A stretch of DNA of 64,000 nucleotides from NCBI RefSeq assembly GCF_947494755.1, contig NZ_CANLVZ010000004.1, forward strand, positions 1 through 64,000, given 5' to 3'. The position numbers were made by a program, and so were the translations under genes. The notes beneath the pieces are model-generated. The model worked only from the letters and a program-made list of their open reading frames with translations, did not search any database and was not told the DNA's origin. Of the stretch, positions 19,777 to 48,100 are shown in pieces. Positions within the stretch are counted from its first letter, which is position 1, and every line of letters starts with the position of its first letter. The DNA comes from an uncultured Tateyamaria sp. (GTDB lineage Bacteria > Pseudomonadota > Alphaproteobacteria > Rhodobacterales > Rhodobacteraceae).

Positions 19777-20964
19777 TCAAGCAGACGACGCCACAGGGCT
19801 GCGCCGCTCGGCCATCCGCCCGATCCGTGCGACGGTCTGTGCCAGATCGGCAATCTCGTCCCGCGACCAGCTTGGGTCGATCAAAAAGGCAAGGCTGGTC
19901 TCCCCAAGCGATTGCGCGACCGGCAGCGGTGCGGAGGGGCCGATGCCACGGGCGCGGAACATCTCTTCGCGGTAGATTTCGGAACAACTGCCCGAAAAGG
20001 CGGGAAAGCCTGCGTCGGAGATTTCGGCAAGAATGCGGTCGCGTGACCAGCCGGTGGCAAGGGCCGACGGTTCGACAAACGCGTAATAGCGATACCACGC
20101 ATGGGTGATGCCATCAGGCGGGGTCACGACGCGGAAGGCGCTGCACCCCGACAGCGTCTCGGTCAGAACGGCAGCATGGGCGGTGCGGATCGCGCGCCAG
20201 TCGTTCAAGCGTTCAAGCTGGACACGGCCAATAGCCGCCGACATGCCGGTCATGCGCAGGTTGGTGCCGGGTTCCCCCCGATGCAGCCAGCGAAAGCCGG
20301 GAGGGTGGTCGTCGGCATGGACCACCGCATAGCTTTTGCCGTGATCCTTGAAGCTCCACGCGCGGTCCCACAATTGCGGATCCTCGGTCAGCAACATGCC
20401 CCCTTCGCCGCCCGTGGTCATGATCTTGTCCTGACAGAAGGAAAACGAGCCGAACGTGCCAAAGGTGCCCACATGGCGCGCACCGATCATCGCGCCATGG
20501 GCCTGGGCGCAATCCTCGATCACCCACAGCCCGTGGGCCTCGGCCAGCGCCATGATCTCGACCATGTCGCAGGGCCAGCCCGCAAGGTGTACCGGGATGA
20601 TCCCGCGCGTGCGCGGCGTGATCAGCGGGGCAATGGTTTCAGGCGTGATGTTCTGCGTGTCGGGGTCGATATCGGCAAAGACGGGCACGCCGCCTGCCAG
20701 CATCACACACGCCGCCGAGGCGACAAAGCTGCGGGGCGTCACGATCACCTCGTCGCCGGGTTCAAGGTCGAGCGCCCGCAGGGCCGTATCCAGCGTCACC
20801 GATCCGTTCGCCATCGCGATGGCAAAGGAGGCCCCGGTATAGGCGCAATAGGCATCCTCGAAGGCGGTCACGTCAAAGCCGGTCCAGGCGTTGACCTTGC
20901 CGGATTTCAGCACCGCCGTGACGGCAGCGATCTGATCATCATCATATATGGGCCAGCGAGACAT
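19777..20964 (-). CDS. DegT/DnrJ/EryC1/StrS sugar aminotransferase
   Basis: The 395-residue PLP enzyme transfers an amino group to a keto-sugar nucleotide. VTPRSFVASAACVMLAGG, VIEDCAQAHGA (PLP-ring aspartate) and SFSFCQDKIMTTGGEGGML (Schiff-base lysine present) mark it as a true aminotransferase. I chose ATG 20964 because GGAGA lies at proper distance; the track's ATG at 20970 is too close to it. It is last in a minus-strand operon with the PIG-L, formyltransferase and sugar transferase genes. Its likely substrate is the 4-keto-6-deoxy sugar made by the PglF-like dehydratase (inference). Confidence 0.88.
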   Translation of the reverse strand: MSRWPIYDDDQIAAVTAVLKSGKVNAWTGFDVTAFEDAYCAYTGASFAIAMANGSVTLDTALRALDLEPGDEVIVTPRSFVASAACVMLAGGVPVFADIDPDTQNITPETIAPLITPRTRGIIPVHLAGWPCDMVEIMALAEAHGLWVIEDCAQAHGAMIGARHVGTFGTFGSFSFCQDKIMTTGGEGGMLLTEDPQLWDRAWSFKDHGKSYAVVHADDHPPGFRWLHRGEPGTNLRMTGMSAAIGRVQLERLNDWRAIRTAHAAVLTETLSGCSAFRVVTPPDGITHAWYRYYAFVEPSALATGWSRDRILAEISDAGFPAFSGSCSEIYREEMFRARGIGPSAPLPVAQSLGETSLAFLIDPSWSRDEIADLAQTVARIGRMAERRSPVASSA

Positions 20965-20986
20965 GGGCATTCTCCGGTTTCAGGGG

Positions 20987-21694
20987 TCAAAGGACGGCGC
21001 GGACAAGGACAAAGCCCTCGGCGGCCGCGCGGTGGACGGTGGCACCACGCAGGGTGGCAAGGGCGCGCAGGCTCTCGATCGAGCGTTCGTGCGGCGCCGC
21101 GCGCACCTGACTGGCAAAGCAGGCAAAGGCGGCCAGCTTGTCCTCAAGCGTGTCGGTGATATCGATAAAGACGTTCGGCACGAAAGGGGGCGTGAGGTAA
21201 GGCGCGTTCCAGTTCGTTTCGGACAGGGTTTCGTAGGCCAGGATCGTGGTGGGATAGCGCGCCTGGTGCGGCCGGCTTGCCACCAGCGTCGACAGGAACG
21301 TCAACTGGTGATCCATGTGGATGTCGCCGGGGTGGGGGGCAAAGACCGTGTGCGGGTCCATCGTCCGGATCAGATCGCCAAGGCCCGCATTCAGTGCACC
21401 ATGGGGATGTTCGGCCAGCTCGGCTGCCGGGAAATCCAGCCAGTGGGTCTGGGCAATACCGAGTTGGCCGTGCGCCGCTGCGGCCTCGGCCCGGACTGTC
21501 GCGATTTGTGCCGCGTCAAAGCGGGGCGGCTGGCCGCTGGTCACAACCGCAACATGTACATTGTGTCCCGCACGGGCGAGACGTGCCATGGTGCCACCCA
21601 CGCCCAGGATTTCGTCATCAGGATGCGGCGCAACCACCAGAACGGGGCACCCGTCCGGGTCGGGTTGGCCAAACAGGTCGGGCAGGGCGCTCAT
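20987..21694 (-). CDS. PIG-L/LmbE-family zinc deacetylase
   Basis: The 235-residue product has the metal site VVAPHPDDEILGVGGTMARL (HPDDE) and the third ligand region in HPGDIHMDHQLTF. It is expected to remove N-acetyl groups from an amino sugar or a GlcNAc-type glycan. ATG 21694 is chosen for its GGAAGGAGC Shine-Dalgarno; the track ORF begins 17 residues earlier inside the upstream gene. It overlaps the formyltransferase stop by four bases and sits 22 bases before the aminotransferase start, so all three are one operon. Confidence 0.88.
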   Translation of the reverse strand: MSALPDLFGQPDPDGCPVLVVAPHPDDEILGVGGTMARLARAGHNVHVAVVTSGQPPRFDAAQIATVRAEAAAAHGQLGIAQTHWLDFPAAELAEHPHGALNAGLGDLIRTMDPHTVFAPHPGDIHMDHQLTFLSTLVASRPHQARYPTTILAYETLSETNWNAPYLTPPFVPNVFIDITDTLEDKLAAFACFASQVRAAPHERSIESLRALATLRGATVHRAAAEGFVLVRAVL

Positions 21695-22602
21695 AGCTGG
21701 CTCCTTCCAAGGTGGGTGTGTTGGGCGGGGGGCGCACCGGACCATTCGGTCACATCAAGGCATGCACCGTCGCCGCAATAGACAGTGAAAAGGTCAGGCG
21801 TGACCGCCTGCACCTGACCGGGCAGGCCGACATAATACCCCGTGCGCGGACAGAGCTGTGCGGCGGTGATCACCAGCGTCTCTCCGGAGGCGGTGGTGGT
21901 GAAGGCCCCGGGATAGGGCGGCCCGGCCGCGCGGATCAATCGGTGAATGTCGCGCGCTGGTTTGGTCCAGTCGATCAACCCGTCACTGGGCCGGCGCCGG
22001 GCACAGACAGAGGCTTGCGTGTCATCCTGCGCCGTGGCGGGCCGCTGACCTGCCTTGAGGTCAGACAAGAGGGCGGGCAGCATGTCCTGCAAGGCGTCGA
22101 TCACCTTATCATAAAGACTACGGGCAGTTTCGGCCTCCGGATCGATGGAAAACTGGCGTTGCGCGGCGAGGTCGCCGGTGTCTACCCCATCGTCAAGCCA
22201 GAACAGGCTCGCCCCGGCCTGTGTGCCACCCATCAGAATGGTCCACGGTATGACACCGCGCCCACGCAACTGGGGCAGGGCGGAGGGATGAAAGCCAATG
22301 GCACCGTGTTTCGCCAGTGCCCGGAACGCGGGCCCACAAATCTGGGACCAGCCGATGACCATAATGATGTCGGGGCTTATTGCGGCAATGGCCGCATGAG
22401 TATCGGGGGCGTCGCTTTTCTCGGTCCGGTGCACGGGGATGTCATATTGCGCTGCAATTGGCCCAAGATCGGCAAAGTCGGAATGACGCCGTGCGAGATC
22501 TGTGGGCAATGTCACCACCAGATCAGGCGCATGCCCTGCCGCACAAATCGCGGCAAGTGCGGCACGCGAGCCTTCGACCGCCCCGACAAACACCGTCCTC
22601 AT
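21691..22602 (-). CDS. Fmt-like sugar N-formyltransferase
   Basis: The 303-residue product resembles the N10-formyl-THF-dependent transferase fold of Fmt/ArnA and sugar N-formyltransferases: MVIGWSQICGPAFRALA, GFHPSALPQLRGRGVIPWTI, and WLDDGVDTGDLAAQ with the conserved Asp. A C-terminal OB-like domain follows (GLIDWTKPARDIHRLIRA). The His of the active site is present, but the Asn two residues before it in classical members is Gly here (GFH instead of NxH). In this operon it most plausibly formylates an amino-deoxy sugar nucleotide. Confidence 0.8.
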   Translation of the reverse strand: MRTVFVGAVEGSRAALAAICAAGHAPDLVVTLPTDLARRHSDFADLGPIAAQYDIPVHRTEKSDAPDTHAAIAAISPDIIMVIGWSQICGPAFRALAKHGAIGFHPSALPQLRGRGVIPWTILMGGTQAGASLFWLDDGVDTGDLAAQRQFSIDPEAETARSLYDKVIDALQDMLPALLSDLKAGQRPATAQDDTQASVCARRRPSDGLIDWTKPARDIHRLIRAAGPPYPGAFTTTASGETLVITAAQLCPRTGYYVGLPGQVQAVTPDLFTVYCGDGACLDVTEWSGAPPAQHTHLGRSQL

Positions 22603-23198
22603 GATGTTGCAGACCCGGTCAGCGACTTCGACACAAGCGCGATGCGATCCACACGGCGCTGCTCGCCATAAAGTGCGACGCCAATCGTCTCGGCCAGAAT
22701 ACGCAGATCAAGCCATGTGCTGCGGTTGGCTATATACCAAAGGTCCAGTTGCAGCTTTTCGGTGTCGGACAACATGGTGTTGCCGCTGACCTGCGCCCAC
22801 CCGGTCAGACCGGGACGGACCGTGGCGCGGCGCAGGCCATCCTGCCCGAAACCCGCGATGGTCTCGCGCAAAAGGGGGCGGGGCCCGACCAGCGCCATCT
22901 CACCGCGCAGAATGGTCAAAAGCTGGGGCAACTCGTCCAGACGCAGTCGGCGCACAATGGTCGAGATAGGGGTCTGGCGCTGCGCATCCGGCAGCAAAGC
23001 GCCGTCTGGCGCGCGCGCATCTGACATGGTGCGCAATTTGATGACTGTGAACGGCACATCGTGCAACCCGCTGCGGGTCTGTCGAAACACACTTGGCGCG
23101 CCAAGCGACAGGCGCAGAATGACATAGGCAATCAGGAAAAACGGCAACGCCAGCAGACCAGCCAGCCCCGTTATCAATAGTTCAACCGCACGGTTCAT
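22599..23198 (-). CDS. Priming sugar-phosphate transferase (PglC/WbaP C-terminal type)
   Basis: The 199-residue monotopic phosphoglycosyl transferase has one N-terminal hydrophobic reentrant helix (LLITGLAGLLALPFFLIAYVIL). It also shows FTVIKLRTMSDA, RRLRLDELPQLLTILRGEMALVGPRP (catalytic Asp-Glu), RPGLTGWAQVSGN and QLDLWYIANRS. It transfers a sugar phosphate to undecaprenyl phosphate, starting the repeat unit. Its short length and its operon with formyltransferase, deacetylase and aminotransferase genes suggest a PglC-like preference for a diamino-trideoxy-type sugar. Start ATG 23198 is chosen over TTG 23204; neither has a strong ribosome-binding site. Confidence 0.9.
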   Translation of the reverse strand: MNRAVELLITGLAGLLALPFFLIAYVILRLSLGAPSVFRQTRSGLHDVPFTVIKLRTMSDARAPDGALLPDAQRQTPISTIVRRLRLDELPQLLTILRGEMALVGPRPLLRETIAGFGQDGLRRATVRPGLTGWAQVSGNTMLSDTEKLQLDLWYIANRSTWLDLRILAETIGVALYGEQRRVDRIALVSKSLTGSATS

Positions 23199-24081
23199 GT
23201 TCAATACTCAATCGGGTGCGGGCAAAATCTGCCCTTGCGGCACCACTTCGTTAGGGTCAACACCGCCACGCGGCGGTTTCTTTAATCAATACGCGTCACT
23301 CTATATATGATGTGCGCTTTGTTGGCTATTACTAAAGATCACAGCAGCACAAGGTATTCTCAGGAGTAAGCAAAGGGCAATCATCGCGATAGATTAATAG
23401 AATGGTAAAAAGATGATCAATTCAACTATTGCGATAATAGGAGCGGACTGTTTTCTCCAAAATCGCAGTCTTTCGAAAACACAAAGCAATCCATTGCCGA
23501 ATCGCAAACCGGCGAAGAATTGCTTCGAAACAGGTCCGTACTCTCGATAAGGGAACTCAGTCTCAGAAAATACAACCATGTAGGGAAGCTCGTTCAGGGC
23601 GTCTATTAAAGTGGCAAAAACCCGCCGCAGACCCGAAAAATCTAACATACTGTAATTTAGTGATATTTCAGGATTTATCCACACGAGCGGCAGAAAATTG
23701 TTAACAAATCACTTACTTTTTTACAAATTTTCCGTATACATGAGGTAGGCAATTTCCTGCCTGACACACCTGAGTGACGCGAGAATTTCTTCGTGCAGGT
23801 GACGATGCGACGAGTGGCAAACATACCTGCGGGGACACGCGGGACCAAAAAATATATAAGACCAAATAATAATGCAGGGCGATAAGCCTGATGAATTTCG
23901 AATAAGATAACGCGCTCCTGATCGAATTATGCGCGACATAAAAACGGCTACACACGGCTGAGCATTTTCCGTTTTGAGACTGACAAACCTGGTTTGTCGG
24001 TGTCTGGAAACGTGTGTCATTTCTATTGCGACCGGTTGCCTGATTAGGAGGTGCTGGTATTTGTTTAACGAGGTGTTTGAA
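23199..24081. other. AT-rich 0.88-kb divergent spacer
   Basis: This long spacer separates the minus-strand sugar transferase operon from the plus-strand dehydratase operon. It is visibly more AT-rich than its surroundings. It contains two minus-strand ORFs (23394-23684 and 23713-23955) without ribosome-binding sites or recognisable domains. A short hairpin (ACCGCC acgc GGCGGT, then ttcttt) lies at 23262-23277. It probably holds the divergent promoters and regulatory sites; I cannot support a gene. Confidence 0.5.
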
Positions 24082-26244
24082 ATGAGCAATTTAGACGGCA
24101 TGACGACGGGCGACCAATTGGTCTGGACGCCAACACGACGGGCCGGCCGCGCAATTATGGCGCGGATCGGACGGCGATTTGCATCGACGGGCCGGCTGTT
24201 GGCGTCATTACGCGCCAACCGCCGGCTTGCAATCGCCGACACCGTCGCAACTGCCTTGGCCGCGCTCGCAGCATTGCTGTTAACGGCCAATCTGATCGGC
24301 GCACATGTCCTCAGCGAGAGCCTTGTTGCGTTCGTCTCGTCGGCCGTTCTGGCCGCTTTGATCATGTATCCCCTCAGCGCCTTTTACAGAGGCCACGCCC
24401 GCGCCACGTCTTTACGCGACGCGGTTGTCGTCGTGCGCGGGGCGCTGTTTGCGCTTGGCCTGCAATGGCTGTGCCTGTCGCTGTTGCCGGGCGCGGCGGC
24501 GGTCCCATTTGCCTCTTTCGCCATCCAATTCCTGGTTGTAGTCCCTGCGCTGGTCGGCTTGCGCCTGTGTGCCCGTCACCGCGAGCTGGTGCGTAAGGTC
24601 AATCACACCGCCCGCGCGCCCGCCGACATGGCCGTTGCCGACACGCGCATTCCAGTGCTCGTCGTCGGGACCGGGACCAATTGTGATCTTTTCGTGCGCG
24701 CCTCACGCACGCCCGACGCCCGCTATCGGCCCATTGGTATCATCGATGACGCGCGCGACACGGGCGGCCTCGTGTTTCACGACATCGACATACTCGGCTC
24801 GCTTTTGTCGCCTGACCGGCTGTGCGCGACCCTGGAAATGATGGAGGCGCTGCCCCAACGCCTGTTCCTGACCGAACCGATCACCCAGCTTGATTCCGAC
24901 GGAATCGGCAAGTTGATCGGGTGGGCCAATGCGCACAGCGTCCCTGTCTCGCGTCTGCCCAACCTGGGCGAAGCACCCTCGGGCTCCGACCTTGGCGGAG
25001 TTGAGCCGCGCGCCGTTGACCCCACAGACATCCTTGACCGACCGCAAAAGGCGGTTGAGCGGTCGCTGTTGCGCGCCTTGTTCAACGGCCGCCGCGTTCT
25101 GATCACCGGGGCAGGCGGGTCCATCGGCAGTGAGTTGTCGCGCCAGATCGCCTCCTTCGGTCCGAGCCAGCTGGTCTTGCTGGAACAGTGCGAATTGAAC
25201 GCCTACACCATTGATCAGGATCTGAAGCAGTATTTTCCGGACGTTCAGCACCATGTGCATGTGGCAGACATTCGCGACGCCAGGCGGGTCAACGCGATCT
25301 TTGCCAAGCACCGCCCCGAACTGGTGTTCAATGCCGCGGCCCTGAAGCATGTGCCCATGGTCGAGGCCAACCCGTGCGAGGGCGTGCTGACCAACGTGAT
25401 CGGCACCCGCAACATTGCAGATGCAGCCCGCGACGTGGGTGCCATTGCGATGGTGCAGGTGTCGACCGACAAGGCCGTGAACACCACCAATGTGATGGGC
25501 GCGACCAAGCGGGTCGCCGAATTCTACGTTCAGGCGCAGGATCGCATCACGTCCGAAACCGGCGAAAGCACCCGCTTTTTCTCGGTCCGGTTTGGCAACG
25601 TCCTGGGATCGTCCGGCTCGCTCATCCCGTTGTTCCAGAAACAGATCGCTCAAGGCGGACCACTCACGATCACGGACGACCGCATGACCCGCTATTTCAT
25701 GACCATCCGCGAGGCGGTCGAACTGACGCTTGTGGCGGCGGCAAAGGGCTTGGCGCAGAAAACCGGCCTGGGCCAGATCTTTGTTCTGGATATGGGAGAG
25801 CCGGTCAAGATCATGGATATCGCTGAACGGATGATCCGCTTGGCCGGGCTGCGCCCTGACGATGACATCAAGATCGAAGTGATCGGCATTCGCCCCGGTG
25901 AAAAGCTGTTCGAAGAGCTGTTTGACGAATCCGAAACGCCGCGTGATTGCGGCATTCCCGGTGTGCAGGCCGCAGTACCTGAGGGCATCGCCATCTCGCG
26001 GCTGCGCGCGGCTATCCATCATCTTGAAGGGGCGGCGCGGGGCGGGTCGGCGCGTGACGTGAAACGCCGGCTGAAGAACCTTGTGCCCGGCTACGGGGTC
26101 AACGGGCTGCGGCCCATCGAAATTACCGGCGATGCGCTGCGCGCGCCGGAACCACGCGGGCGGCCCATTGCATCATCGCCCGTGACGATCGCCCTGCCGA
26201 CGGGCGGTTATCCAAGCCAATTGCATTACGAAACAAATACTTAA
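24082..26244 (+). CDS. CapD/PglF-like membrane UDP-sugar 4,6-dehydratase
   Basis: The 720-residue FlaA1/CapD-type protein has four N-terminal membrane segments (for example TVATALAALAALLLTANLIG and FASFAIQFLVVVPALVGLRL). A CoA/NAD-binding-like domain (VPVLVVGTGTN-type) follows. The C-terminal SDR catalytic half begins VLITGAGGSIGSELSRQIAS, and STDKAVNTTNVMGATKRVAE has Met where SDRs usually have Tyr, as in PglF/CapD. It likely converts UDP-GlcNAc to the 4-keto-6-deoxy product. ATG 24082 has GAGGTG before it; an in-frame TTG at 24061 has a stronger AGGAGGT and is a real alternative. The next gene starts three bases after the stop. Confidence 0.88.
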   Translation: MSNLDGMTTGDQLVWTPTRRAGRAIMARIGRRFASTGRLLASLRANRRLAIADTVATALAALAALLLTANLIGAHVLSESLVAFVSSAVLAALIMYPLSAFYRGHARATSLRDAVVVVRGALFALGLQWLCLSLLPGAAAVPFASFAIQFLVVVPALVGLRLCARHRELVRKVNHTARAPADMAVADTRIPVLVVGTGTNCDLFVRASRTPDARYRPIGIIDDARDTGGLVFHDIDILGSLLSPDRLCATLEMMEALPQRLFLTEPITQLDSDGIGKLIGWANAHSVPVSRLPNLGEAPSGSDLGGVEPRAVDPTDILDRPQKAVERSLLRALFNGRRVLITGAGGSIGSELSRQIASFGPSQLVLLEQCELNAYTIDQDLKQYFPDVQHHVHVADIRDARRVNAIFAKHRPELVFNAAALKHVPMVEANPCEGVLTNVIGTRNIADAARDVGAIAMVQVSTDKAVNTTNVMGATKRVAEFYVQAQDRITSETGESTRFFSVRFGNVLGSSGSLIPLFQKQIAQGGPLTITDDRMTRYFMTIREAVELTLVAAAKGLAQKTGLGQIFVLDMGEPVKIMDIAERMIRLAGLRPDDDIKIEVIGIRPGEKLFEELFDESETPRDCGIPGVQAAVPEGIAISRLRAAIHHLEGAARGGSARDVKRRLKNLVPGYGVNGLRPIEITGDALRAPEPRGRPIASSPVTIALPTGGYPSQLHYETNT

Positions 26245-26246
26245 AC

Positions 26247-27530
26247 ATGTCGAACGCTACTGAACATACGCCGCCGCATTTGCGGCGGACGGGAGTGGTA
26301 TCCTCCGACGACACCGTGGAAGCGACTCCGGTGACGCCGCAGCACGTCGTCGTGATTGCGAGTCTCGCCTGGTCGCTGGTGAACTTTCGGCTGGAACTTA
26401 TGCGCCGGATGCTGGCGCAGGGGCACCATGTGACAGCGCTGGCGCCGGACTTTGATCCTGACACCCGCGCGCAATTGCAGCGCGAAGGGATCACCTGCCA
26501 CAGCGTGCCCATGCAGCGCACCGGGCTGAACCCGCTGGCGGATCTGCGCACGCTGCGCGCCATCTCTCAACTGCTGTCGGCGCTGCGCCCGGATGTGGTG
26601 GTTGGCTACACGATGAAGCCGATCCTCTATGGATGCTGGGCGGGCCATATCGCAGGTGTGCCGCGCCGCTATGCGCTGTTCACCGGCCTTGGCTATGCGT
26701 TTTCCAAGGCGCGCCCGCGTGGGCGGCGCCGTTTGGTGCGCGCCATTGTCGTCGCCTTGCATCGGATGGCGTTGCGCCATGTGACAGCCGCGTTTTGCTA
26801 CAACAGGCAGGAACGGCGCGACATACGCAGCCTGCGTCTGATCCCCGACAATGTGCCCTTGGTGGATGTGCCCGGATCGGGGGTCGACACCCGCCGCTTT
26901 GCCCCCCCTACCGAGGCTCCGGCCCAATTCCGGTTCCTCTTTGTGGGGCGGTTGTTGAAAAGCAAGGGGCTCGAGGTTCTGGCCGAGGCCGCACGTCTGT
27001 TGCGCGCGCGCGGCCACAAGTTTGAACTTGGCGTGCTTGGTCCGCTTGATACCAACCCCGATGCGATCCCATTGGCCCAAGTCGAACAGTGGCAGGCAGA
27101 GGGGCTGCTGACCTATTTGGGTGAGACCCGCGATGTGCGCCCGCATCTCGCATCTGCCGGAGTGTTTGTTCTGCCCACCATGCTGCGCGAAGGGGTGCCA
27201 CGCACCATCCTTGAGGCGATGGCGAGCGGTCTGCCCGTCATCACCACCGACGCGCCCGGCTGCGGTGAAACCATCGAAGATGGCGTATCGGGCCGGGTTG
27301 TGCCTTGCGATGACGCGTCGGCCTTGGCCACGGCCATGGCGCAGTTCATCGCCGATCCCGCATTGGCCCAGACGATGGGGCAGGCGGCGCATGAGCGCGT
27401 GATCGAGCGCTATGATGTGCACAAGGTCAACGCCCTGTTGCTGACCAATATGGGGCTTGAGGCACCGTGCGTCGCCCATGCCACGGCCCCCGCAACCCCA
27501 CTGAGCGCAAGCGTGGAGTCGGTGGCATGA
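26247..27530 (+). CDS. GT4 glycosyltransferase (PglA-like)
   Basis: The 427-residue GT-B enzyme has an N-terminal acceptor domain (VVVIASLAWSLVNFRLELMR, VPMQRTGLNPLADLRTL, VVGYTMKPILYGCWAGHIAG). The donor domain carries FRFLFVGRLLKSKGLEVLAE, the E-x7-E motif REGVPRTILEAMASGLPVITTDAPG and a VNALL C-terminal helix. The KPILYG block is typical of the PglA/CapM group that adds the second sugar to an undecaprenyl-linked HexNAc. It has a clear paralogue in the locus at 43261-44511. The following GtrA gene overlaps its stop by four bases. Confidence 0.88.
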   Translation: MSNATEHTPPHLRRTGVVSSDDTVEATPVTPQHVVVIASLAWSLVNFRLELMRRMLAQGHHVTALAPDFDPDTRAQLQREGITCHSVPMQRTGLNPLADLRTLRAISQLLSALRPDVVVGYTMKPILYGCWAGHIAGVPRRYALFTGLGYAFSKARPRGRRRLVRAIVVALHRMALRHVTAAFCYNRQERRDIRSLRLIPDNVPLVDVPGSGVDTRRFAPPTEAPAQFRFLFVGRLLKSKGLEVLAEAARLLRARGHKFELGVLGPLDTNPDAIPLAQVEQWQAEGLLTYLGETRDVRPHLASAGVFVLPTMLREGVPRTILEAMASGLPVITTDAPGCGETIEDGVSGRVVPCDDASALATAMAQFIADPALAQTMGQAAHERVIERYDVHKVNALLLTNMGLEAPCVAHATAPATPLSASVESVA

Positions 27531-29271: not shown

Positions 29272-30078
29272 ATGAAGACGATACTTCTTGCCGGCGGCCT
29301 TGGATCCAGACTTGCCGAAGAAACCGTGTCCATTCCCAAACCCATGGTCGAGGTCGGCGGACGCCCGATCATCGCGCGCGTCATGGATATCTACAGCCAC
29401 TTCGGGCACCGCGATTTCGTGATTGCCGCAGGCTACAAGGCGCTGCTGCTCAAACAGTTCTTTGCCAACTACCACCTGATCGCCAACAACATCACGGTGG
29501 CGCTAGACAGTGGCGAGATGACGCTGGTGCCCTCGGCCCCCGGCGGGTGGAACGTGTCGGTGGTCGATACCGGTGCCAACACCATGACGAGCGGGCGCAT
29601 CCGCCGTCTCAAGGACTGGCTGAACGGCGAGACGTTCATGTGCACCTATTCCGATGGGCTGGGCAATGTCGACATTGATGCGCTGCTCGACTTCCATCGC
29701 TCGCATGGCAAGCTGGCGACGGTGACAGCCGTGCAGCCGCCCGCGCGTTTCGGCAATATCGATATTCATGGGGACAGGGTGAATGCCTTCACAGAAAAGG
29801 TCGAAGGGGGTGATACCTGGATCAATGGTGGCTACTTCGTGTTCGAGCCCGGCGTGCTCGACTACATGGTCGACGACACAGAACCCCTCGAACACACCCC
29901 GCTCAGCCAGATGGCCAAGGATGGGCAGTTGATGGCCTATCGCCACAATGGGTTCTGGCATCCGATGGACACCGTGCGTGACCGCAATAAGCTTGACGCG
30001 CTGTGCGAAGACGAAACGCCGCCCTGGATGGACTTTGAAGTCTATCAGCCGGAGCGCATCCCGGCCGTCGCCATTTAA
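29272..30078 (+). CDS. rfbF: Glucose-1-phosphate cytidylyltransferase
   Basis: Makes CDP-glucose from CTP and glucose 1-phosphate, the first step of CDP-linked deoxysugars. The 268-residue nucleotidyltransferase starts MKTILLAGGLGSRLAEETVSIPKPMVEVGGRPI. It contains TFMCTYSDGLGNVDIDALLDFHRSHGKLAT and NGGYFVFEPGVLDY, the RfbF/DdhA signatures. AAGAAGGGACC precedes the ATG. It leads a five-step cassette with the dehydratase 11 bases downstream. Confidence 0.95.
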   Translation: MKTILLAGGLGSRLAEETVSIPKPMVEVGGRPIIARVMDIYSHFGHRDFVIAAGYKALLLKQFFANYHLIANNITVALDSGEMTLVPSAPGGWNVSVVDTGANTMTSGRIRRLKDWLNGETFMCTYSDGLGNVDIDALLDFHRSHGKLATVTAVQPPARFGNIDIHGDRVNAFTEKVEGGDTWINGGYFVFEPGVLDYMVDDTEPLEHTPLSQMAKDGQLMAYRHNGFWHPMDTVRDRNKLDALCEDETPPWMDFEVYQPERIPAVAI

Positions 30079-30089
30079 GGATCAAGGCG

Positions 30090-31313
30090 ATGTCGGCTCA
30101 GATCGGATCAGATTTCGGCGGTGTGTTCGCAGGGCGACGGGTGCTTCTGACTGGGCACACGGGCTTTAAGGGCGGGTGGATGTCGCTGTGGCTCGCGCGG
30201 CTTGGGGCCGAGGTCACAGGAATTGCATTGCCGCCCGAAACCGGCCCCAGCTTCTTTGAGGCCTGCGGGGTTGCGCGCTCCGTGAACAGCCGGATGGCGG
30301 ACATCACCGACCGTGTGCGGCTCAGTAAGGTCATGGGCACGCTGGATGCGGAGATTCTGATCCATATGGCGGCCCAACCGCTTTTGCGCCGGTCCTATTC
30401 CTATCCGGTAGAGACATTTGCGACCAACGTGATGGGCACCGCGCACGTGCTGGAACTGGCGCAGCGGATGCCGTCGCTCAAGGCGATCATCGTGGTCACC
30501 AGCGACAAATGCTATGAAAACAACGAATGGGAGTGGGGCTACCGCGAGGCGGATCCCTTGGGCGGCGCGGATCCTTACAGCGCCTCCAAAGGGTGCGCCG
30601 AAATTCTGGCCCACGCCTATCGCCGCTCGTTCTTCAACAAGGAGGGCGGACCACGGCTTGCCACGGTACGGGCGGGCAATGTCTTTGGCGGTGGCGATTG
30701 GGGGCTGGAGCGCCTTGTGCCCGATATCGTGCGCGCCGCCGCCAACAAACGTCCGGTCAACATCCGCAATCCGGGCAGCGTGCGTCCATGGCAGCACGTG
30801 CTTGAGCCGGTGTCGGGATACATGGCGCTCGCCGCACGCCTGTTTCAGCATGGTGCCCCGTTCGAGGGCGCGTGGAACTTTGGCCCCGACGTGTCCTCGA
30901 CCGTGCCGGTGCGCCAGCTGACACAGGAAATCTGCGAAGCGTGGGGGCCCGGCGGGCCAGAGATTGTGTACGGCGAGGCCCAGGATGCGGCCCCCAGTCA
31001 ACAGATGCACGAGGCGGGGCTGTTGCGCCTCGACAGCACCAAGGCCCACACACGACTCGGCTGGCGGCCCCAACTCAGCCTCAGCGAAGCGGTTCGCATG
31101 ACCGTCGAATGGTATCGCCACCATGCCGACGGCCACGGCATGGTGGCCCTCACGGACGCGCAAATCAGCACATTCTGCGGCTGTATGGACGGGCAGCGCA
31201 CCCATACCACCCCAGTTCCCATCATCGCAGCCGAAGCCAGCCGCCGCCGCAAACCCCTCTTGACAGGCACGCTCAGTGTCCAGCCTGGCAAAACGTCAGG
31301 AGGACGGAAATGA
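30090..31313 (+). CDS. rfbG: CDP-glucose 4,6-dehydratase
   Basis: Converts CDP-glucose to CDP-4-keto-6-deoxyglucose. The 407-residue extended SDR has VLLTGHTGFKGGWMSLWLARLGA, HMAAQPLLRRSYSYPVETFATNVMGT, VVTSDKCYENNEWEWGYREADPLGG and the YSASK catalytic pair. It is some 45 residues longer than the usual about 360; the surplus is a C-terminal tail after the helix ending VEWYRHHADG. That tail includes SRRRKPLLTGTLS and has no recognisable function. It overlaps the next gene by four bases. Confidence 0.94.
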   Translation: MSAQIGSDFGGVFAGRRVLLTGHTGFKGGWMSLWLARLGAEVTGIALPPETGPSFFEACGVARSVNSRMADITDRVRLSKVMGTLDAEILIHMAAQPLLRRSYSYPVETFATNVMGTAHVLELAQRMPSLKAIIVVTSDKCYENNEWEWGYREADPLGGADPYSASKGCAEILAHAYRRSFFNKEGGPRLATVRAGNVFGGGDWGLERLVPDIVRAAANKRPVNIRNPGSVRPWQHVLEPVSGYMALAARLFQHGAPFEGAWNFGPDVSSTVPVRQLTQEICEAWGPGGPEIVYGEAQDAAPSQQMHEAGLLRLDSTKAHTRLGWRPQLSLSEAVRMTVEWYRHHADGHGMVALTDAQISTFCGCMDGQRTHTTPVPIIAAEASRRRKPLLTGTLSVQPGKTSGGRK

Positions 31314-32527
31314 GAGTGGATTACGGTCAGACCGTTCACGGTCAGGAAGAGATTGATGCGGTTGTCGAAGTTCTGCAAACGTCGACCCAGATGGGGCCGC
31401 GTGTGCCCAAGATGCAGGCCCGGGTTGCCGCGCTGTTCGACAAAGCGCACGGGATCATGGTGAATTCCGGGTCTTCGGCCAATTATCTTGCCGTCAAGAT
31501 CCTGGACCTGCCCAAAGGCAGCGAGGTGATCACACCTGCGCTCACCTTTGCCACCACGGTTGCGCCGCTGATCCGCCACGGGCTGATCCCGGCCTTTGTC
31601 GATGCCGAAGAGGGTACCTACAACATCGACGTGTCCAAGATCGAGGCGATGATCACCGACAAGACAAGCGCGCTGATGATCCCTTCGCTTATCGGGAACC
31701 TGCCGGATTGGAAAGCCATCCGCGCCCTTGCCGACAAGTACGGGCTGCGCGTGATCGAAGATAGCGCCGACACTTTGGGGGCCACCATGAAAGGGCGCAG
31801 CACGGGGCGCTATTCCGATGTCTCAACCACCAGCTTTTGCGGCAGTCACGTGATCAAAGGGGCGGGCAATGGCGGCATGCTGTGCGTCAACGACCCTGAA
31901 CTCGCGCGCAAGGCGGTTCTGCTCCGGGCGTGGGGGCGCAGCTCATCCCTGTTCGGTGACAGTGAGATCATCGACAACCTCTTTAACGTCAAATTGGATG
32001 GCATTGAATACAATACGACATTCGACTTTGAAACACTTGGGTACAACCTCGAACTCGCCGAAGTCAGCGCCGCCTTCGGTCTTGTGCAGCTCGACAAGCT
32101 GGACCTGCACATCTCAGAGCGGGAAAAGAACTTCGCCAGCCACCTCACGTTCTTCAAAGACTACGAGGACTGGTTCGTGCTGCCGCGTCAATTGCCGGAC
32201 TCGCGCACAGGCTGGTTGTCATTCCCGCTGACGTTGCGCGATGACGTGCCCTTTACCCGGCGCGCGCTGCAGATGTTCGTGGAAAAGGCCGACATCCAGA
32301 CGCGGCCCGTCTTCACCGGCAACATTCTGCGCCAGCCCGCCATGAAGGACGTTGAGCATCGCACGGATGCGGGCGGCTATCCGGTGTCGGATGCCGTGAT
32401 GCGGAGCGGCATTCTGCTGGCCTGTCACCATGGGCTGACAGACGCCCATGTCGCCTATGTCCATGAACAGTTCGAGGCGTTCGCAGCGCAACACCAAAAC
32501 CGGAGCGCGACCCACATGGCGGCTTAG
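31310..32527 (+). CDS. PLP-dependent 3-dehydratase-like enzyme (RfbH/ColD fold, His for Lys)
   Basis: The 405-residue DegT/StrS-fold protein follows CDP-glucose 4,6-dehydratase with ATGA coupling. Where aminotransferases have SFxxxK it reads TTSFCGSHVIKGAGNGGM: the Schiff-base Lys position is His, as in E1 (RfbH/DdhC) and ColD dehydratases. This implies loss of the C3 hydroxyl rather than amination. The E1 [2Fe-2S] cysteines after RDWGR are absent (RAWGRSSSLFGDSE), more like ColD. VIEDSADTLGA supplies the PLP aspartate. ATG 31310 has AGGAGG in place; the track's start at 30872 lies inside rfbG. The exact reaction is inferred. Confidence 0.75.
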   Translation: MRVDYGQTVHGQEEIDAVVEVLQTSTQMGPRVPKMQARVAALFDKAHGIMVNSGSSANYLAVKILDLPKGSEVITPALTFATTVAPLIRHGLIPAFVDAEEGTYNIDVSKIEAMITDKTSALMIPSLIGNLPDWKAIRALADKYGLRVIEDSADTLGATMKGRSTGRYSDVSTTSFCGSHVIKGAGNGGMLCVNDPELARKAVLLRAWGRSSSLFGDSEIIDNLFNVKLDGIEYNTTFDFETLGYNLELAEVSAAFGLVQLDKLDLHISEREKNFASHLTFFKDYEDWFVLPRQLPDSRTGWLSFPLTLRDDVPFTRRALQMFVEKADIQTRPVFTGNILRQPAMKDVEHRTDAGGYPVSDAVMRSGILLACHHGLTDAHVAYVHEQFEAFAAQHQNRSATHMAA

Positions 32528-32552
32528 GCGCGCGCCCTTTCAGGAGAATGAG

Positions 32553-33012
32553 ATGACCCTCGCAGATCGCAAAATCGTAGACAGCCTTGCTAACTGGCCG
32601 CAGACCGCGCCCGGCCCCGCCGGGACCACGTGCGTGTCCCAGTCCGATGGGTTGCCGATCTATGTTGATTTTGCGAAGCCGGTCGATGCCGAGACCCCGT
32701 TCATGCAGCAAGTGCCTGACGGCCCTTACGATTTCACCCGGTTCACCGAAAGTGGAGATGCAGATCATCTGACCGATCGACTATTTGTTCCGGGGTCTGT
32801 CCCGTTCGCGCCATGTCGGCAGCCTCGCAAAACTGATCTTTTTCGGGCCGCACGACCTCAATCACCTGATCCCCGAAGACGACGCGGCGGACCGTGCCAG
32901 CGGCGTCGTCCTTCTGGGCAGGAAATCCGCCCATACCTTCTCCGCCAAAGACATCTTTGCGAGATATCGCGGCGCGCAACAGGCGGCCCGACCCCTGGAT
33001 TATTACTATTGA
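32553..33012 (+). pseudogene. Frameshifted small gene, unknown function
   Basis: A good start (AGGAGAATGAG ATG 32553) opens a frame reading MTLADRKIVDSLANWPQTAP and continuing to ESGDADHLTDR near 32780. Past that point this frame turns into Arg/Pro-rich nonsense, while the +1 frame becomes protein-like (YLFRGLSRSRHVGSLAKLIF, then GRKSAHTFSAKDIFARYRGA) and ends RPLDYYY-TAA at 33012. Removing one base near 32781 joins the halves as LTDR-YLFRGLSR into one about 152-residue protein. This indicates a single-base insertion, real or a sequencing error. I do not recognise the family. Its place between the 3-dehydratase-like and C-methyltransferase genes suggests a role in the same CDP-sugar branch. 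Confidence 0.6.
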
Positions 33013-33034
33013 AGACTTTGAACAGGACGCGGAT

Positions 33035-34291
33035 ATGAACACTCAAGTTGCTCTGAGCAGTACGTTGAAAATCTGCCGCTGTTGTCAGTCGGAAAATCTG
33101 CTGACGTTTTTGCCGATGGGCAATCATCCCCCCGCGAACATGTTCGTACGGCCCGACGAATTGAATGACCCCCAACCGGCCTTTCCGCTCAACACCCAAG
33201 GCTGTCTGGATTGCGGGCTGATCCAGGTGGCCGATCAAATCCCCGAAGGGTTCTTTACCCACTACCTATATGTGCCTTCTGGCGCGACCACGATGCACAC
33301 ACACTTCAAGTCTTTCGCTCAAGCCCTTGAAAAAATTGCGAAAGGTGGGTTGATCATCGATATCGGCTGCAATGACGGGCTGATGCTTGGCTTTGCAAAT
33401 GCGAACGGGTCCCGCACCCTCGGGATCGATCCGGCGGCCAATCTGGCCGAGATCGCGGCCAAGCAGGGCGTCGAGGTGCATGTTGCCTATCTGACCCCCG
33501 AAACCGCGCGGGAGGTGGTCGGCTACCATGGCTGGGCACAAGCCATCGCGACCTCCAACACCTTTAACCAAATCGGTGACCTGCACAGGTTCATGGCCTC
33601 TGTCGACATCCTGCTCGCTGAGGATGGGACCTTTGTGATCGAGGTGCCGTGGGGCAAGGCGATCATGGAAACCAACGAGTTCGATAACGTCTATCACGAA
33701 CACATGTCCGAGCTGAGCCTGCTGTCCATTGTCAAACTGGGGCAGGCGACCGGCTTTGATGTGGTGGATGTGACAAAATTGTCGGTGCATGGCGGGTCCA
33801 TGCGGGTTTTCATGCGCAAGGCGTCGCAAGGTGTGACACCCACCCCTATCGTTGCCGAAATGATCGCGGACGAGCGGGCCGCCGGTCTGCTGGATCGCGA
33901 TGGATATCTCGACTTTGCCGCGCGGGTCGAAGAGATGAAGACCGATTTACTGGCCCTGCTGTCCGACATAAAGGCAAAAGGTCAGACAATTGCCGGATAT
34001 GGTGCGCCCGCCAAGGGCAACACGTTGCTCAACTACTTTGGGATCGGCCCGGAAACCCTTGATTTTCTTGTGGATCGCAATCCACTGAAACAGGGACTCT
34101 ACGCGCCGGGGTCAAAAATCCCGATCCTCGCTCCCCAAGCCATCGCAGAGCACAAACCAAACTACATGCTGGTGCTGGCCTGGAATTTCTTTGACGAGAT
34201 CCGCACGCAGCTGTCCGACTATGAGCCGGTCGGTGGGAAGTTCATCGTACCCTTGCCGACGCCGCGCATCGTCGGCGCTGACACGGAATAG
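33035..34291 (+). CDS. Sugar C-methyltransferase (TylC3/NovU type)
   Basis: The 418-residue SAM enzyme of the sugar C-methyltransferase family. The N-terminal zinc domain has ICRCCQSENLL and the paired GCLDCGLIQVAD (four cysteines). PAN(M)F and THYLYVPSGATTMHTHF follow. The SAM site is IIDIGCNDGLMLGFANANGS, and the C-terminal domain (GYGAPAKGNTLLNYFGI) is the Methyltransf_14 type. Characterised members methylate C3 or C5 of 4-keto-deoxysugar nucleotides. With the CDP-glucose enzymes upstream this predicts a branched C-methyl sugar. ATG 33035 is chosen; the track extends upstream into the frameshifted gene. The next gene begins 12 bases later. Confidence 0.88.
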   Translation: MNTQVALSSTLKICRCCQSENLLTFLPMGNHPPANMFVRPDELNDPQPAFPLNTQGCLDCGLIQVADQIPEGFFTHYLYVPSGATTMHTHFKSFAQALEKIAKGGLIIDIGCNDGLMLGFANANGSRTLGIDPAANLAEIAAKQGVEVHVAYLTPETAREVVGYHGWAQAIATSNTFNQIGDLHRFMASVDILLAEDGTFVIEVPWGKAIMETNEFDNVYHEHMSELSLLSIVKLGQATGFDVVDVTKLSVHGGSMRVFMRKASQGVTPTPIVAEMIADERAAGLLDRDGYLDFAARVEEMKTDLLALLSDIKAKGQTIAGYGAPAKGNTLLNYFGIGPETLDFLVDRNPLKQGLYAPGSKIPILAPQAIAEHKPNYMLVLAWNFFDEIRTQLSDYEPVGGKFIVPLPTPRIVGADTE

Positions 34292-34303
34292 GCGGGCAGG
34301 GCG

Positions 34304-35281
34304 ATGGCATCCATTCTGATCACAGGGGGTACGGGCTTTATCGGGGCGCACTTGGTGCGCGCCTGCCTTGCACGTGGCGACCGGGTGACAGTGTTGGCGC
34401 GCGCAGGCTCCTCGCTTGCGCGCCTGGATGACGTGCGCCCCCAAATCGCACTGCTGCACGCTGACTTTGCAAATGTCGGCAGTGTGCGCCAGGCCCTGCA
34501 GGTGGCCAAGGCGGATGTGATTTTTCATCTGGGGGCCACGACCCGCTATGTGGCGCAGGATGATCTGCGCGACGCGGCCCAAAGCCTTGAGGACAACCTG
34601 ACCCCGCTTGTGACGCTGGTGGCGGCAGCCTGCGACGTGCCGCCCGCTGTGCTCGTGCGCAGTGGCACCATCGCGGAATATGGGGACGTCGCTGTGCCTT
34701 ATGACGAGCGCCTGCGCGAAGCGCCGCGTGGGCTCTATGCCGCCTCGATGTGTGCGGCCACGCATTATCTTCAGTCCGTGCGCGCGCGGCTGCCTTTTGC
34801 GGCGATCACCGCACGGCTGGCCCTCACATACGGGCCGATGCAAAACCCGGACTTCCTGATCCCGCGATTGATCAATGCCTGCCGCGAAGGTGACGCTCTG
34901 ACCCTGCACCGCCCGCTGGATCGGCGTGACATGATCCATGTGGATGACGTTGTCGCTGGCCTTTTGGCCGTGGCCGATGCCGGAGATGTGGCACCCGATC
35001 TGGTGAACCTCGGCACCGGGCAGGCGCCGACGATGGCGCAATTAGGCCGCGAAGTGCTGCGAGCCTGCGGCGCAAGCCTTGCGCTGCTGAAAGAGAAGAC
35101 CCAAACCACGCCGGCAACCGAATTGATTGCCAGCGCAGCGCTGGCCCGACAGACTCTGGGCTGGAGCGCGCGCATCACCCTTGAAGAAGGGCTGAAAAGG
35201 ACATTCGAATGGACACGATCACGCGCCACCCCGCCACGCCGCCCCCGCGCAGCGCAACTGACCCAAACAGGTGCGGCATGA
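34304..35281 (+). CDS. Extended SDR, NAD-dependent epimerase/reductase-like, YAASM active site
   Basis: The 325-residue protein has the Rossmann start ILITGGTGFIGAHLVRACLA, VIFHLGATTRYVA, VRSGTIAEYGD (active Ser/Thr region) and VNLGTGQAPTMAQLGREVLRA. The canonical YxxxK reads LYAASMCAATHYL, so the catalytic Lys is Met. By position it should reduce or epimerise the 4-keto group of the C-methylated CDP-sugar and finish the pathway, but the missing Lys makes activity uncertain. It overlaps the following GT2 gene by four bases. Confidence 0.75.
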   Translation: MASILITGGTGFIGAHLVRACLARGDRVTVLARAGSSLARLDDVRPQIALLHADFANVGSVRQALQVAKADVIFHLGATTRYVAQDDLRDAAQSLEDNLTPLVTLVAAACDVPPAVLVRSGTIAEYGDVAVPYDERLREAPRGLYAASMCAATHYLQSVRARLPFAAITARLALTYGPMQNPDFLIPRLINACREGDALTLHRPLDRRDMIHVDDVVAGLLAVADAGDVAPDLVNLGTGQAPTMAQLGREVLRACGASLALLKEKTQTTPATELIASAALARQTLGWSARITLEEGLKRTFEWTRSRATPPRRPRAAQLTQTGAA

Positions 35282-45651: not shown

Positions 45652-47097
45652 ATGGGCTCTCGAAACGTATCTTTGGATACAGCGCAAACCATTGTGATCG
45701 GGGCAGGGCCGTCGGGCCTGAGTGCTGCGCTGACCTTGCAAAAGGGGGGGCACGCGCCCGTGTTGCTTGAGCAGGGCCAGCATGTGGGCGGCATGATGCG
45801 TTCGCCGCGCTGGCAGGATTTCACGCTGGATCTGGGACGTAAGGAGCTTTACGCCCGCTTTCCCGAAATCGACCAGTTGTGGCGCGATGCGTTGGGGGAC
45901 GACTACACGCCTTATCCACACCGGGTTGGCAGTCTTTACGAGGGGCGCATTGTCGAGATGTCGGGGGCCTATCGTGGCCGCACGCGCGGCATGCCCGTGG
46001 GGTGGCTCGCACGGGGCGGTTCTGATCTGTTGCGCGGCTGGATGGCCAGCGCGCGGCGCGCGCCTGAAACCTACGAAGAGTTCTGGCATTTCCGCGTCGG
46101 CCGAACCTTTGCCCGCATTCTCGCGCAGGGATATTGGGAAAAGTTTCGCGGCCTGGCCTGGGCCGACATCGCCCCGCCCGACACCAATCCGGTCGATCAG
46201 GATCAGGGCACAGGCCTGCTGGCAACGGCAAAAAATGCGCTGGCCATGGCGGCGCGCGCGGGGGTGTCACGGCAGGTGGCATGGCGACATCCGGGCGGCG
46301 GCACCGGGCAATTGTTTGAACGGCTTGCGGCGCAATACACCGCTTTGGGTGGCAAGATTGTGTTCGGGGCCAACGTCACCGCATTGGAACAAACCGCCGA
46401 CGGCGTGACGGTCACCTACGATGTTGACGGCAAGACCACCGTTCAAAACGCGCGCCATGTGGTGTCGAGCATGCCAATCGAGCGGCTTTGGGACGCCCTG
46501 CCAGCCGCCCGGACCGAGGGGGTGGACCTGCCGGCACCAGGGTCCGAAGCGCAGCGCGCCGTGCTGCTGGTCTATCTGTTTCTGGATACGCCCCATCAAT
46601 TTCCCCATGCATGGCTCGAGGTGAATGACCCCACACTTTTGTGCGGGCGCATCACAAATTTCGGGGCCTTTGGCGGGCGCATGGTGCCAGAGGGCAAGGC
46701 GGCCTATTGCGTCGAATTCTTCTGTGACGGGCAGGCGGAAATCCTGAACTGCACGTCAGAGCAGCAGATCGAGATCGCGACCTCGGAGCTGGAGCGCGCA
46801 GGTCTGCTCGCCCGTGCCGACGTGATCGGGGCCCATGTCATGCATTTCCAGCGCACAAATGCGGCGGCCAGTTGGCGCGAACAGCAGACCGCCTATCGCA
46901 CGGCGGTCTTTGCCGAAGTGTCTAAGCTGACGTCGATCTATCATGTGAACCGGCCCGGTGCGGACTGGGCCAGCCTGTCTGGCTTGCAGGCCGCCAACGC
47001 GATCCTGACTGATGATCGGGCTGCATTCGAGGCGGCAGCGGATCCGACCCGGCGCCAAGACGACAATATTGCCGTCAGCGCCCGCAGTGCGGTCTAA
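45652..47097 (+). CDS. FAD/NAD(P)-binding oxidoreductase, protoporphyrinogen-oxidase/UGM-like fold
   Basis: The 481-residue flavoprotein has the dinucleotide fold TIVIGAGPSGLSAALTLQKG at residues about 13-32. The second FAD motif is VGGMMRSPRWQDFTLDLG, and VSSMPIERLWDAL and a C-terminal GLQAANAI helix follow. Proteins of this group include UDP-galactopyranose mutase-like and amine-oxidase-like enzymes; several occur in polysaccharide loci without known chemistry. It begins a plus-strand operon with the ATP-grasp and HAD genes, which ends at the terminator near 48.84 kb. Confidence 0.75.
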   Translation: MGSRNVSLDTAQTIVIGAGPSGLSAALTLQKGGHAPVLLEQGQHVGGMMRSPRWQDFTLDLGRKELYARFPEIDQLWRDALGDDYTPYPHRVGSLYEGRIVEMSGAYRGRTRGMPVGWLARGGSDLLRGWMASARRAPETYEEFWHFRVGRTFARILAQGYWEKFRGLAWADIAPPDTNPVDQDQGTGLLATAKNALAMAARAGVSRQVAWRHPGGGTGQLFERLAAQYTALGGKIVFGANVTALEQTADGVTVTYDVDGKTTVQNARHVVSSMPIERLWDALPAARTEGVDLPAPGSEAQRAVLLVYLFLDTPHQFPHAWLEVNDPTLLCGRITNFGAFGGRMVPEGKAAYCVEFFCDGQAEILNCTSEQQIEIATSELERAGLLARADVIGAHVMHFQRTNAAASWREQQTAYRTAVFAEVSKLTSIYHVNRPGADWASLSGLQAANAILTDDRAAFEAAADPTRRQDDNIAVSARSAV

Positions 47098-47125
47098 CCT
47101 GATGACCCAAGAAAAGGCGAACGCA

Positions 47126-48100
47126 ATGACGACATCCAAGTCCCTTTCAGTTCTCATCTGCTCTGCCGGGCGACGCGTGGGTTTGCTTAGCAGCTTTCGC
47201 ACCAGTCTGCGCGATCTTGGGCTTGAGGGCCGGGTGATTGCCTGCGATCTGGACCCGGGGATGAGCGCGGCCTGCGCGGCGGCTGATGCCGCGTTTGCCG
47301 TGCCCCGCGCTACCGATCCCGGTTATGCCGCCGCGATCCTTGATATTGCGCGCGCCGAACGGGTGGGGCTGATCGTGCCCGCAATCGATCCCGAATTGCT
47401 GCCCTTGGCGCAGGCCGCGCCAGAGTTTGCGGCGGCGGGCATCCGGGTGCATGTATCTGCGCCGCCCGTGATCGACGTGGTGCGGGACAAATCCGAAACC
47501 GCCCGCGTGCTGGATGCCGCCGGTGTACCCGTCCCTCGCACATTGACCGAAGCCCAACTGCGCGCCACGCCGGACGGCTTGCGCTGGCCCGTCTTTGCCA
47601 AACCGTCGGGCGGCAGCGCGAGCCGTGGGCTGGCCGTGTTTGATCACATCGACGCGTTGCCCGACAGCTTCGACGAACCGATGATCTTTCAGGACCGTCT
47701 GACCGGGCCGGAATACACCATCAACATGTTCGTTGACGCCGAGGGTGCGCTGCGGTGCGTGGTTCCCCACAAGCGTTTGTCGGTCAGGGCAGGGGAGGTT
47801 GAGAAGGGGCGCACGGAACGCCGCAAGGATCTGCATGAGATCGCCGCTGGCATTTTACGCGCCTTGCCCGATTTGCGCGGCGTCGCCTGTTTTCAGGTGA
47901 TCGAGGACCCCGAGATCGGCATCGCCGTCTTCGAGATCAACGCCCGCTTTGGCGGTGGTTATCCGCTGGCTGAATATGCTGGTGCCTCCTTTGCGCGGTG
48001 GCTGCTCGAAGAGGTGGCCGATCTGCCCCGCAGCGCGGACAATGCGTGGCGCGATGGTGCCGAGATGCTCCGCTATGACGATGCGATCTACCGGGGATAG
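47126..48100 (+). CDS. ATP-grasp (CarB-like) ligase
   Basis: The 324-residue product has an N-terminal Rossmann-like domain (SVLICSAGRRVGLLSSFRTS, VIACDLDPGMSAACAAADAA). An ATP-grasp core follows: RDKSETARVLDAAGVPVPRT, PVFAKPSGGSASRGLAVF, MIFQDRLTGPEYTINMFVDA and the metal loop VFEINARFGGGYPL. Such enzymes join a carboxylate (amino acid or uronate) to an amine or thiol via acyl phosphate. In this locus it may amidate a uronic acid or add an amino acid to an amino sugar (inference). ATG 47126 is used because GAAAAGGCG precedes it; ATG 47102 is possible. Confidence 0.8.
   Translation: MTTSKSLSVLICSAGRRVGLLSSFRTSLRDLGLEGRVIACDLDPGMSAACAAADAAFAVPRATDPGYAAAILDIARAERVGLIVPAIDPELLPLAQAAPEFAAAGIRVHVSAPPVIDVVRDKSETARVLDAAGVPVPRTLTEAQLRATPDGLRWPVFAKPSGGSASRGLAVFDHIDALPDSFDEPMIFQDRLTGPEYTINMFVDAEGALRCVVPHKRLSVRAGEVEKGRTERRKDLHEIAAGILRALPDLRGVACFQVIEDPEIGIAVFEINARFGGGYPLAEYAGASFARWLLEEVADLPRSADNAWRDGAEMLRYDDAIYRG

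Follow-up and report, generated by a model that had tools for sequence, protein, structure and literature searches.

Gene organization of the locus

The DNA analysed here, referred to as the window, is a stretch of 64,000 nucleotides from a Rhodobacteraceae genome close to Tateyamaria. A wider cluster at about 17-54 kb of the window carries Wzx-like, Wza-like and Wzz-like genes together with several glycosyltransferase genes, and its gene content points to an exopolysaccharide locus of the Wzx/Wzy type. The genes of concern are the following:

19777..20970, minus strand: PLP sugar aminotransferase of the DegT type; closest solved relative Pcryo_0638 (7L7X), E 7.5e-130
20987..21694, minus strand: PIG-L/LmbE-family zinc N-deacetylase; PF02585, E 4.8e-26; APHPDDE and HMDH motifs intact
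21691..22602, minus strand: Gly-type formyltransferase (FT), Formyl_trans_N and C domains; PF00551, E 1.1e-20; PF02911, E 1.1e-14
22599..23204, minus strand: small monotopic phosphoglycosyl transferase (PGT; PglC/WcaJ-type priming transferase); PF02397, E 5.4e-47; first gene of the operon
23974..26244, plus strand: PglF/CapD-type membrane UDP-GlcNAc 4,6-dehydratase; PF02719, E 6.8e-108; divergent from the operon; the start given is the mechanical ORF start and the true start may be further in
26247..27530, plus strand: GT4 glycosyltransferase; comes after the dehydratase in several relatives
47012..48100, plus strand: PylC-like ATP-grasp ligase; PF21360, E 5.2e-21; 387 bits to the homologue in L014
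48109..48753, plus strand: HAD-like hydrolase, paired with the ATP-grasp gene

The preliminary description of this DNA had recognized a PIG-L gene overlapping the stop of a formyltransferase gene, between the genes for a priming transferase and an aminotransferase, and all four were found in that arrangement on the minus strand. The PGT/FT junction is an ATGA stop/start overlap and the FT/PIG-L junction a 4-base ATGA overlap, so that the genes form a translationally coupled operon. The PIG-L start is most likely at 21694 (AAGGAGccagctATGAgc), since an AAGGAG ribosome-binding site precedes the ATGA overlap; a start at the first ATG of the frame (21745), with an overlap of 55 bases, was considered and rejected on the same ground. 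Neighbourhood comparison revealed that the PglF-type dehydratase gene adjoins the operon in relatives too, and the FT of L005 is 92% identical to that of the window. No N-acetyltransferase was found among the scanned proteins of the window cluster (about 17-54 kb). Elsewhere in the same locus, positions 29272-35281 hold genes for a nucleotidyltransferase, a CDP-glucose 4,6-dehydratase-like protein, an RfbH-like aminotransferase, a C-methyltransferase and an SDR, which together look like a pathway to a CDP-linked branched dideoxyhexose.

The aminotransferase could be matched to 7L7X over nearly its full length (residues 2-380 of 397); 7L7X is Pcryo_0638, which works on UDP-4-keto-6-deoxy-GlcNAc (PMC8040287). 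The homology predicts that the PglF-type dehydratase and the aminotransferase would together produce UDP-2-acetamido-4-amino-2,4,6-trideoxyglucose, a sugar with two nitrogen sites, N2 being acetylated and N4 free. The expected intermediate is thus that of the Pcryo_0638/0637 pathway to UDP-2,4-diacetamido-2,4,6-trideoxyglucose; however, the last step of that pathway is a 4-N-acetyltransferase (PMC8040287), whereas the window has an FT and a PIG-L deacetylase instead.

The formyltransferase and its deacetylase partner

The FT matched PF00551 with 74.6 bits (cut-off 26.1) as well as PF02911, and it is one of three PF00551 genes in the window's genome, the others being purN-like and fmt-like. Its best solved relative is ArnA (E 1.7e-37), whose N-terminal domain, the UDP-Ara4N formyltransferase, has the same two-domain layout. 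Like ArnA, the window FT keeps the catalytic His and Asp (His105 and Asp141, invariant in alignment A1, with the matching residues invariant in alignment A3). The triad Asn of ArnA, two residues before the His, is in contrast replaced by Gly103, and Gly occupies this position in 15/15 members of A1. ArnA and 87 surveyed relatives have Asn there, which is the rule among the other FTs collected. ArnA acts on a 4-amine and, to our knowledge, is not paired with any deacetylase.

The Gly-type FTs (21691-22602 of the window with L005-L021, L086-L094, L115-L120, L147-L153, L187, L217 and L218) have in common a G-[FYM]-H-P signature and, upstream of it, a GWSQ-like motif (GWSQ at residues 84-87 of the window FT). 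In a maximum-likelihood tree, a supported branch parts them from the Asn and Gln types, which fall together. The Gln type is represented by a coherent group from Alphaproteobacteria (L096-L114; IQYHPSLLP), none of which adjoins a PIG-L gene. The Gly-type FTs are a group of formyltransferases that naturally lacks a residue long held to be catalytic.

Because the triad Asn is absent, we infer, rather than assign, formyl transfer by the window FT. In GART, the catalytic Asn stabilizes the oxyanion, and the same residue in PvdF is important but not essential (PMC7926923). With Gly at this position in every FT of the group, the proteins might have lost the oxyanion-stabilizing function and either transfer some other group or bind the PIG-L product unformylated. 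We consider this highly improbable, given that these FTs retain two of the triad residues (His and Asp) as well as the C-terminal domain, that some activity survives in Asn variants of both GART and PvdF (PMC7926923), and that Gly-type FTs co-occur with pathways whose haloarchaeal product is N-formylated.

The deacetylase gene is the only PIG-L gene found in a search of the window's genome. Its product matched PF02585 with 92.2 bits against a curated cut-off of 28.2, and the residues of the metal-binding and catalytic motifs HPDD and HxDH (H25, P26, D27, D28, H127, D129 and H130) are invariant in 7/7 relatives. The best solved relatives are diacetylchitobiose deacetylase (E 4.1e-16) and BshB. 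The window protein has its family and zinc motifs in common with diacetylchitobiose deacetylase and BshB1, but it scores under the BshB1 cut-off (78.6 vs 182.5 bits) and its gene context differs. PIG-L enzymes act on many GlcNAc-containing substrates, and for most of those characterized the site of deacetylation is the C2 amine of GlcNAc.

Recurrence of the gene pair in surface-sugar clusters

Among the FTs collected, a PIG-L gene lay within 1.2 kb of 26 of the 45 Gly-type genes, compared with 0/87 of the Asn type and 0/14 of the Gln type; the Fisher p value for the association (7e-16) overstates the evidence because many of the genes are related. An independent sample from two other phyla gave an adjacent PIG-L gene for 3/3 Gly-type FTs versus 0/56 other FTs. 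Chance adjacency was rejected on these two sets of counts (26/45 vs 0/87, then 3/3 vs 0/56), and the search for co-occurrence that the preliminary description had proposed thus found the two genes to be conserved together. FT and PIG-L are a conserved pair in surface-sugar gene clusters of both bacteria and archaea. It turns up in widely diverged FT lineages of the tree, a haloarchaeon included, and in 16 of 27 related pairs the junction at the FT stop is of the ATGA or GTGA type. Its distribution is sporadic, an FT of the window's clade being present in 7/397 sampled genomes of the family.

Most Gly-type FTs without an adjacent PIG-L gene share their genome with a close homologue of it (E below 1e-90): 13.6 kb off in Sinorhizobium medicae, and on the same contig at 15.5 kb in G1023 and 42.5 kb in G449. 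Others, of which L088 is an example, lie at a contig end, and a PIG-L gene was absent from the genome for G179 and L020 (MAG). The possibility that the FTs of Rhizobium/Ensifer work without a PIG-L protein was rejected for most of them, given the close PIG-L in the same genome. In some species of these genera the FT is about 14 kb or more from the PIG-L gene, which stays with the PGT and aminotransferase genes, and S. medicae and S. meliloti have PIG-L in the same cluster as FT. On the symbiotic megaplasmids of S. medicae (pMl3, L141) and S. meliloti 1021 (pSymB, L144), a related polysaccharide cluster holds FT, PIG-L, PGT and aminotransferase genes; that of L141 also has three sulfotransferase genes.

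The pair was encountered in two pathway settings. In the first (setting A), that of the window, the order PGT-FT-PIG-L-aminotransferase occurs with PglF in L005-L009, L019, L135-L138 and Roseibium/Labrenzia plasmids. In the second (setting B), FT and PIG-L accompany the genes for legionaminic or other nonulosonic acids. The recurrence in several phyla and both settings, together with the ATGA coupling, argues against a view in which the FT simply formylates the 4-amine to give QuiNAc4NFo while PIG-L attends to an unrelated substrate, for example the completed polymer or a different residue of its repeat unit. We regard this as improbable, even though formylated 4-amino-6-deoxy sugars are common, the PIG-L family is broad in its GlcNAc-containing substrates, and the two genes are apart in some Rhizobium/Ensifer clusters.

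A different association was noted in Rhizobium/Ensifer, where a pair of genes for a PylC-like ATP-grasp ligase and a HAD-like hydrolase lies directly 3' of the Gly-type FT gene; in the window this pair is 25 kb away. Its positions in relatives are:

L010: 8969-10655, ATP-grasp and HAD pair
L014: 8913-10578, ATP-grasp and HAD pair
L139: 9.0-10.0 kb, ATP-grasp and HAD pair

As a matter of speculation, the ligase could cap another amine by attaching an acyl group or an amino acid.

Proposed acetyl-to-formyl exchange and the amine involved

In setting B, the full operon order LegB-LegC-NeuD-NeuB-NeuC-FT-PIG-L was found in L249 and L125, and its reverse in L124; LegB and LegC scored above their NCBIfam cut-offs in the examples scanned. 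A separate NeuD-type gene is present in 7/9 bacterial nonulosonic clusters with the pair (15-19 kb read each), and the closest solved relatives of its product are N-acetyltransferases of 4-amino sugars, namely perosamine N-acetyltransferase, the pilin-glycosylation PglB, and PglD. The putative NeuD-type acetyltransferase would cap N4, and therefore the only amine left to the FT would be the GlcNAc-derived N2, after PIG-L has opened it. One cluster with both FT and PIG-L (L176) has no NeuD gene within 19 kb.

In legionaminic acid, N5 is the nitrogen that UDP-GlcNAc has at C2. The 5-N-formyl form of this acid is carried by Halorubrum sp. PV6 and by its virus, and the PV6 glycan ends with it (PMC6137143). 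From the published doubly charged peaks at 1546.65 and 1697.70 (PMC6137143) the residue mass comes to 302.10 Da, against 302.11 calculated for a single acetyl and a single formyl group. As in setting B, the PV6 pathway has Leg genes beside a predicted formyltransferase, and its product is formylated at the GlcNAc-derived amine; unlike the FT/PIG-L clusters, the published pathway (legB, C, F, G, H and I with the predicted formyltransferase HrrPV6_1050) names no deacetylase, and HrrPV6_1052 goes unmentioned in the pathway text (PMC6137143). Exchange of the acyl group by FT and PIG-L would be the simplest route to 5-N-formyl-legionaminic acid.

We thus propose, with a probability of roughly 0.55, that FT and PIG-L function as a two-enzyme N-acyl exchange module, deacetylation being followed by formylation of the same amine. 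We infer the substrates, activities, order of steps and amine as follows. PIG-L would hydrolyse the N-acetyl group at the C2 amine derived from UDP-GlcNAc, and the FT would then place a formyl group from 10-formyl-THF on that amine. In the window, the substrate would be UDP-2-acetamido-4-amino-2,4,6-trideoxy-glucose, the joint product of the PglF-type dehydratase and the Pcryo_0638-type aminotransferase, and the coupled priming transferase would load the remodelled sugar onto undecaprenyl phosphate as the first residue of a Wzx/Wzy-type exopolysaccharide. In the legionaminic acid clusters, NeuB would instead use the remodelled product, leading to 5-N-formyl-7-N-acetyl-legionaminic acid. In its broadest form the proposal is more tentative: Gly-type FT and PIG-L may constitute a widespread cassette for replacing N-acetyl by N-formyl on surface sugars, at the amine that derives from GlcNAc, supplying the missing step to 5-N-formyl-legionaminic acid with an FT that works without the catalytic Asn.

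Replacement of N-acetyl by N-formyl at one amine had been raised in the preliminary description. The conservation of the pair and the NeuD genes of the legionaminic-type clusters, which imply the same nitrogen, favour it for setting B, but in the window, whose cluster yielded no acetyltransferase, a formylated N4 together with a deacetylated N2 would fit as well. By that account, the FT would formylate the aminotransferase-derived 4-amine, in the manner of ArnA with UDP-Ara4N, and PIG-L would deacetylate N2; the resulting 2-amino-4-formamido-2,4,6-trideoxyhexose would have its C2 amine free and positively charged. ArnA, the closest solved relative of the FT, is a 4-N-formyltransferase, the aminotransferase provides a 4-amine (PMC8040287), and the cluster of L176 fits this account too. 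It is the main rival, though we consider it less likely than exchange: it leaves 5-N-formyl-legionaminic acid unexplained and does not account for the 4-N-acetyltransferase also encoded in 7/9 of the bacterial nonulosonic clusters. Furthermore, the FT-PIG-L pairs of L127 and L026 have no aminotransferase gene in the DNA read, although DegT genes occur elsewhere in their genomes. The absence of an aminotransferase gene near L026, L127, L129 and L179 was dropped as proof of action on N2 only, DegT genes being found elsewhere (at 16 kb in G961 and 13 kb in G381).

Acyl exchange on a single GlcNAc amine is known from LpxC/LpxD and NodB/NodA. The logic of the proposed FT/PIG-L exchange is the same, in that an N2-acetyl group is hydrolysed and the freed amine then acylated, but LpxC/LpxD and NodB/NodA belong to other enzyme families and add a fatty acyl rather than a formyl group. 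A search of the open-access literature (most subscription journals not being covered) found no description of an exchange in which formyl comes in and PIG-L is the partner, in agreement with the preliminary description, to which such remodelling was not known as a described pathway. The exchange offers a concrete, testable route to N-formyl groups at positions initially N-acetylated, the N5 of legionaminic acid being one, and if it is true, N-formylated glycans would become predictable from genomes.

Three further clusters extend the range of contexts. In L129 (6848-9792), an SDR-PIG-L-PGT-FT operon with a WbpM-like dehydratase resembles the wbpV-wbpL-wbpM layout for QuiNAc/FucNAc, a sugar with N2 as its sole amine; about 13 kb from the operon there is a separate nonulosonic cluster. 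On a cyanobacterial plasmid, a short FT (L143 11303-12001, motif CFHMTDLPYGRGGSP) has Cys at the Asn position and overlaps PIG-L, with NeuB adjoining. On a haloarchaeal plasmid, a Gly-type FT, a second short FT (L142 14350-15072), NeuB, PIG-L and NeuC are found together, and the presence of the short FT beside the Gly-type FT and PIG-L suggests that a di-N-formyl sugar may be produced.
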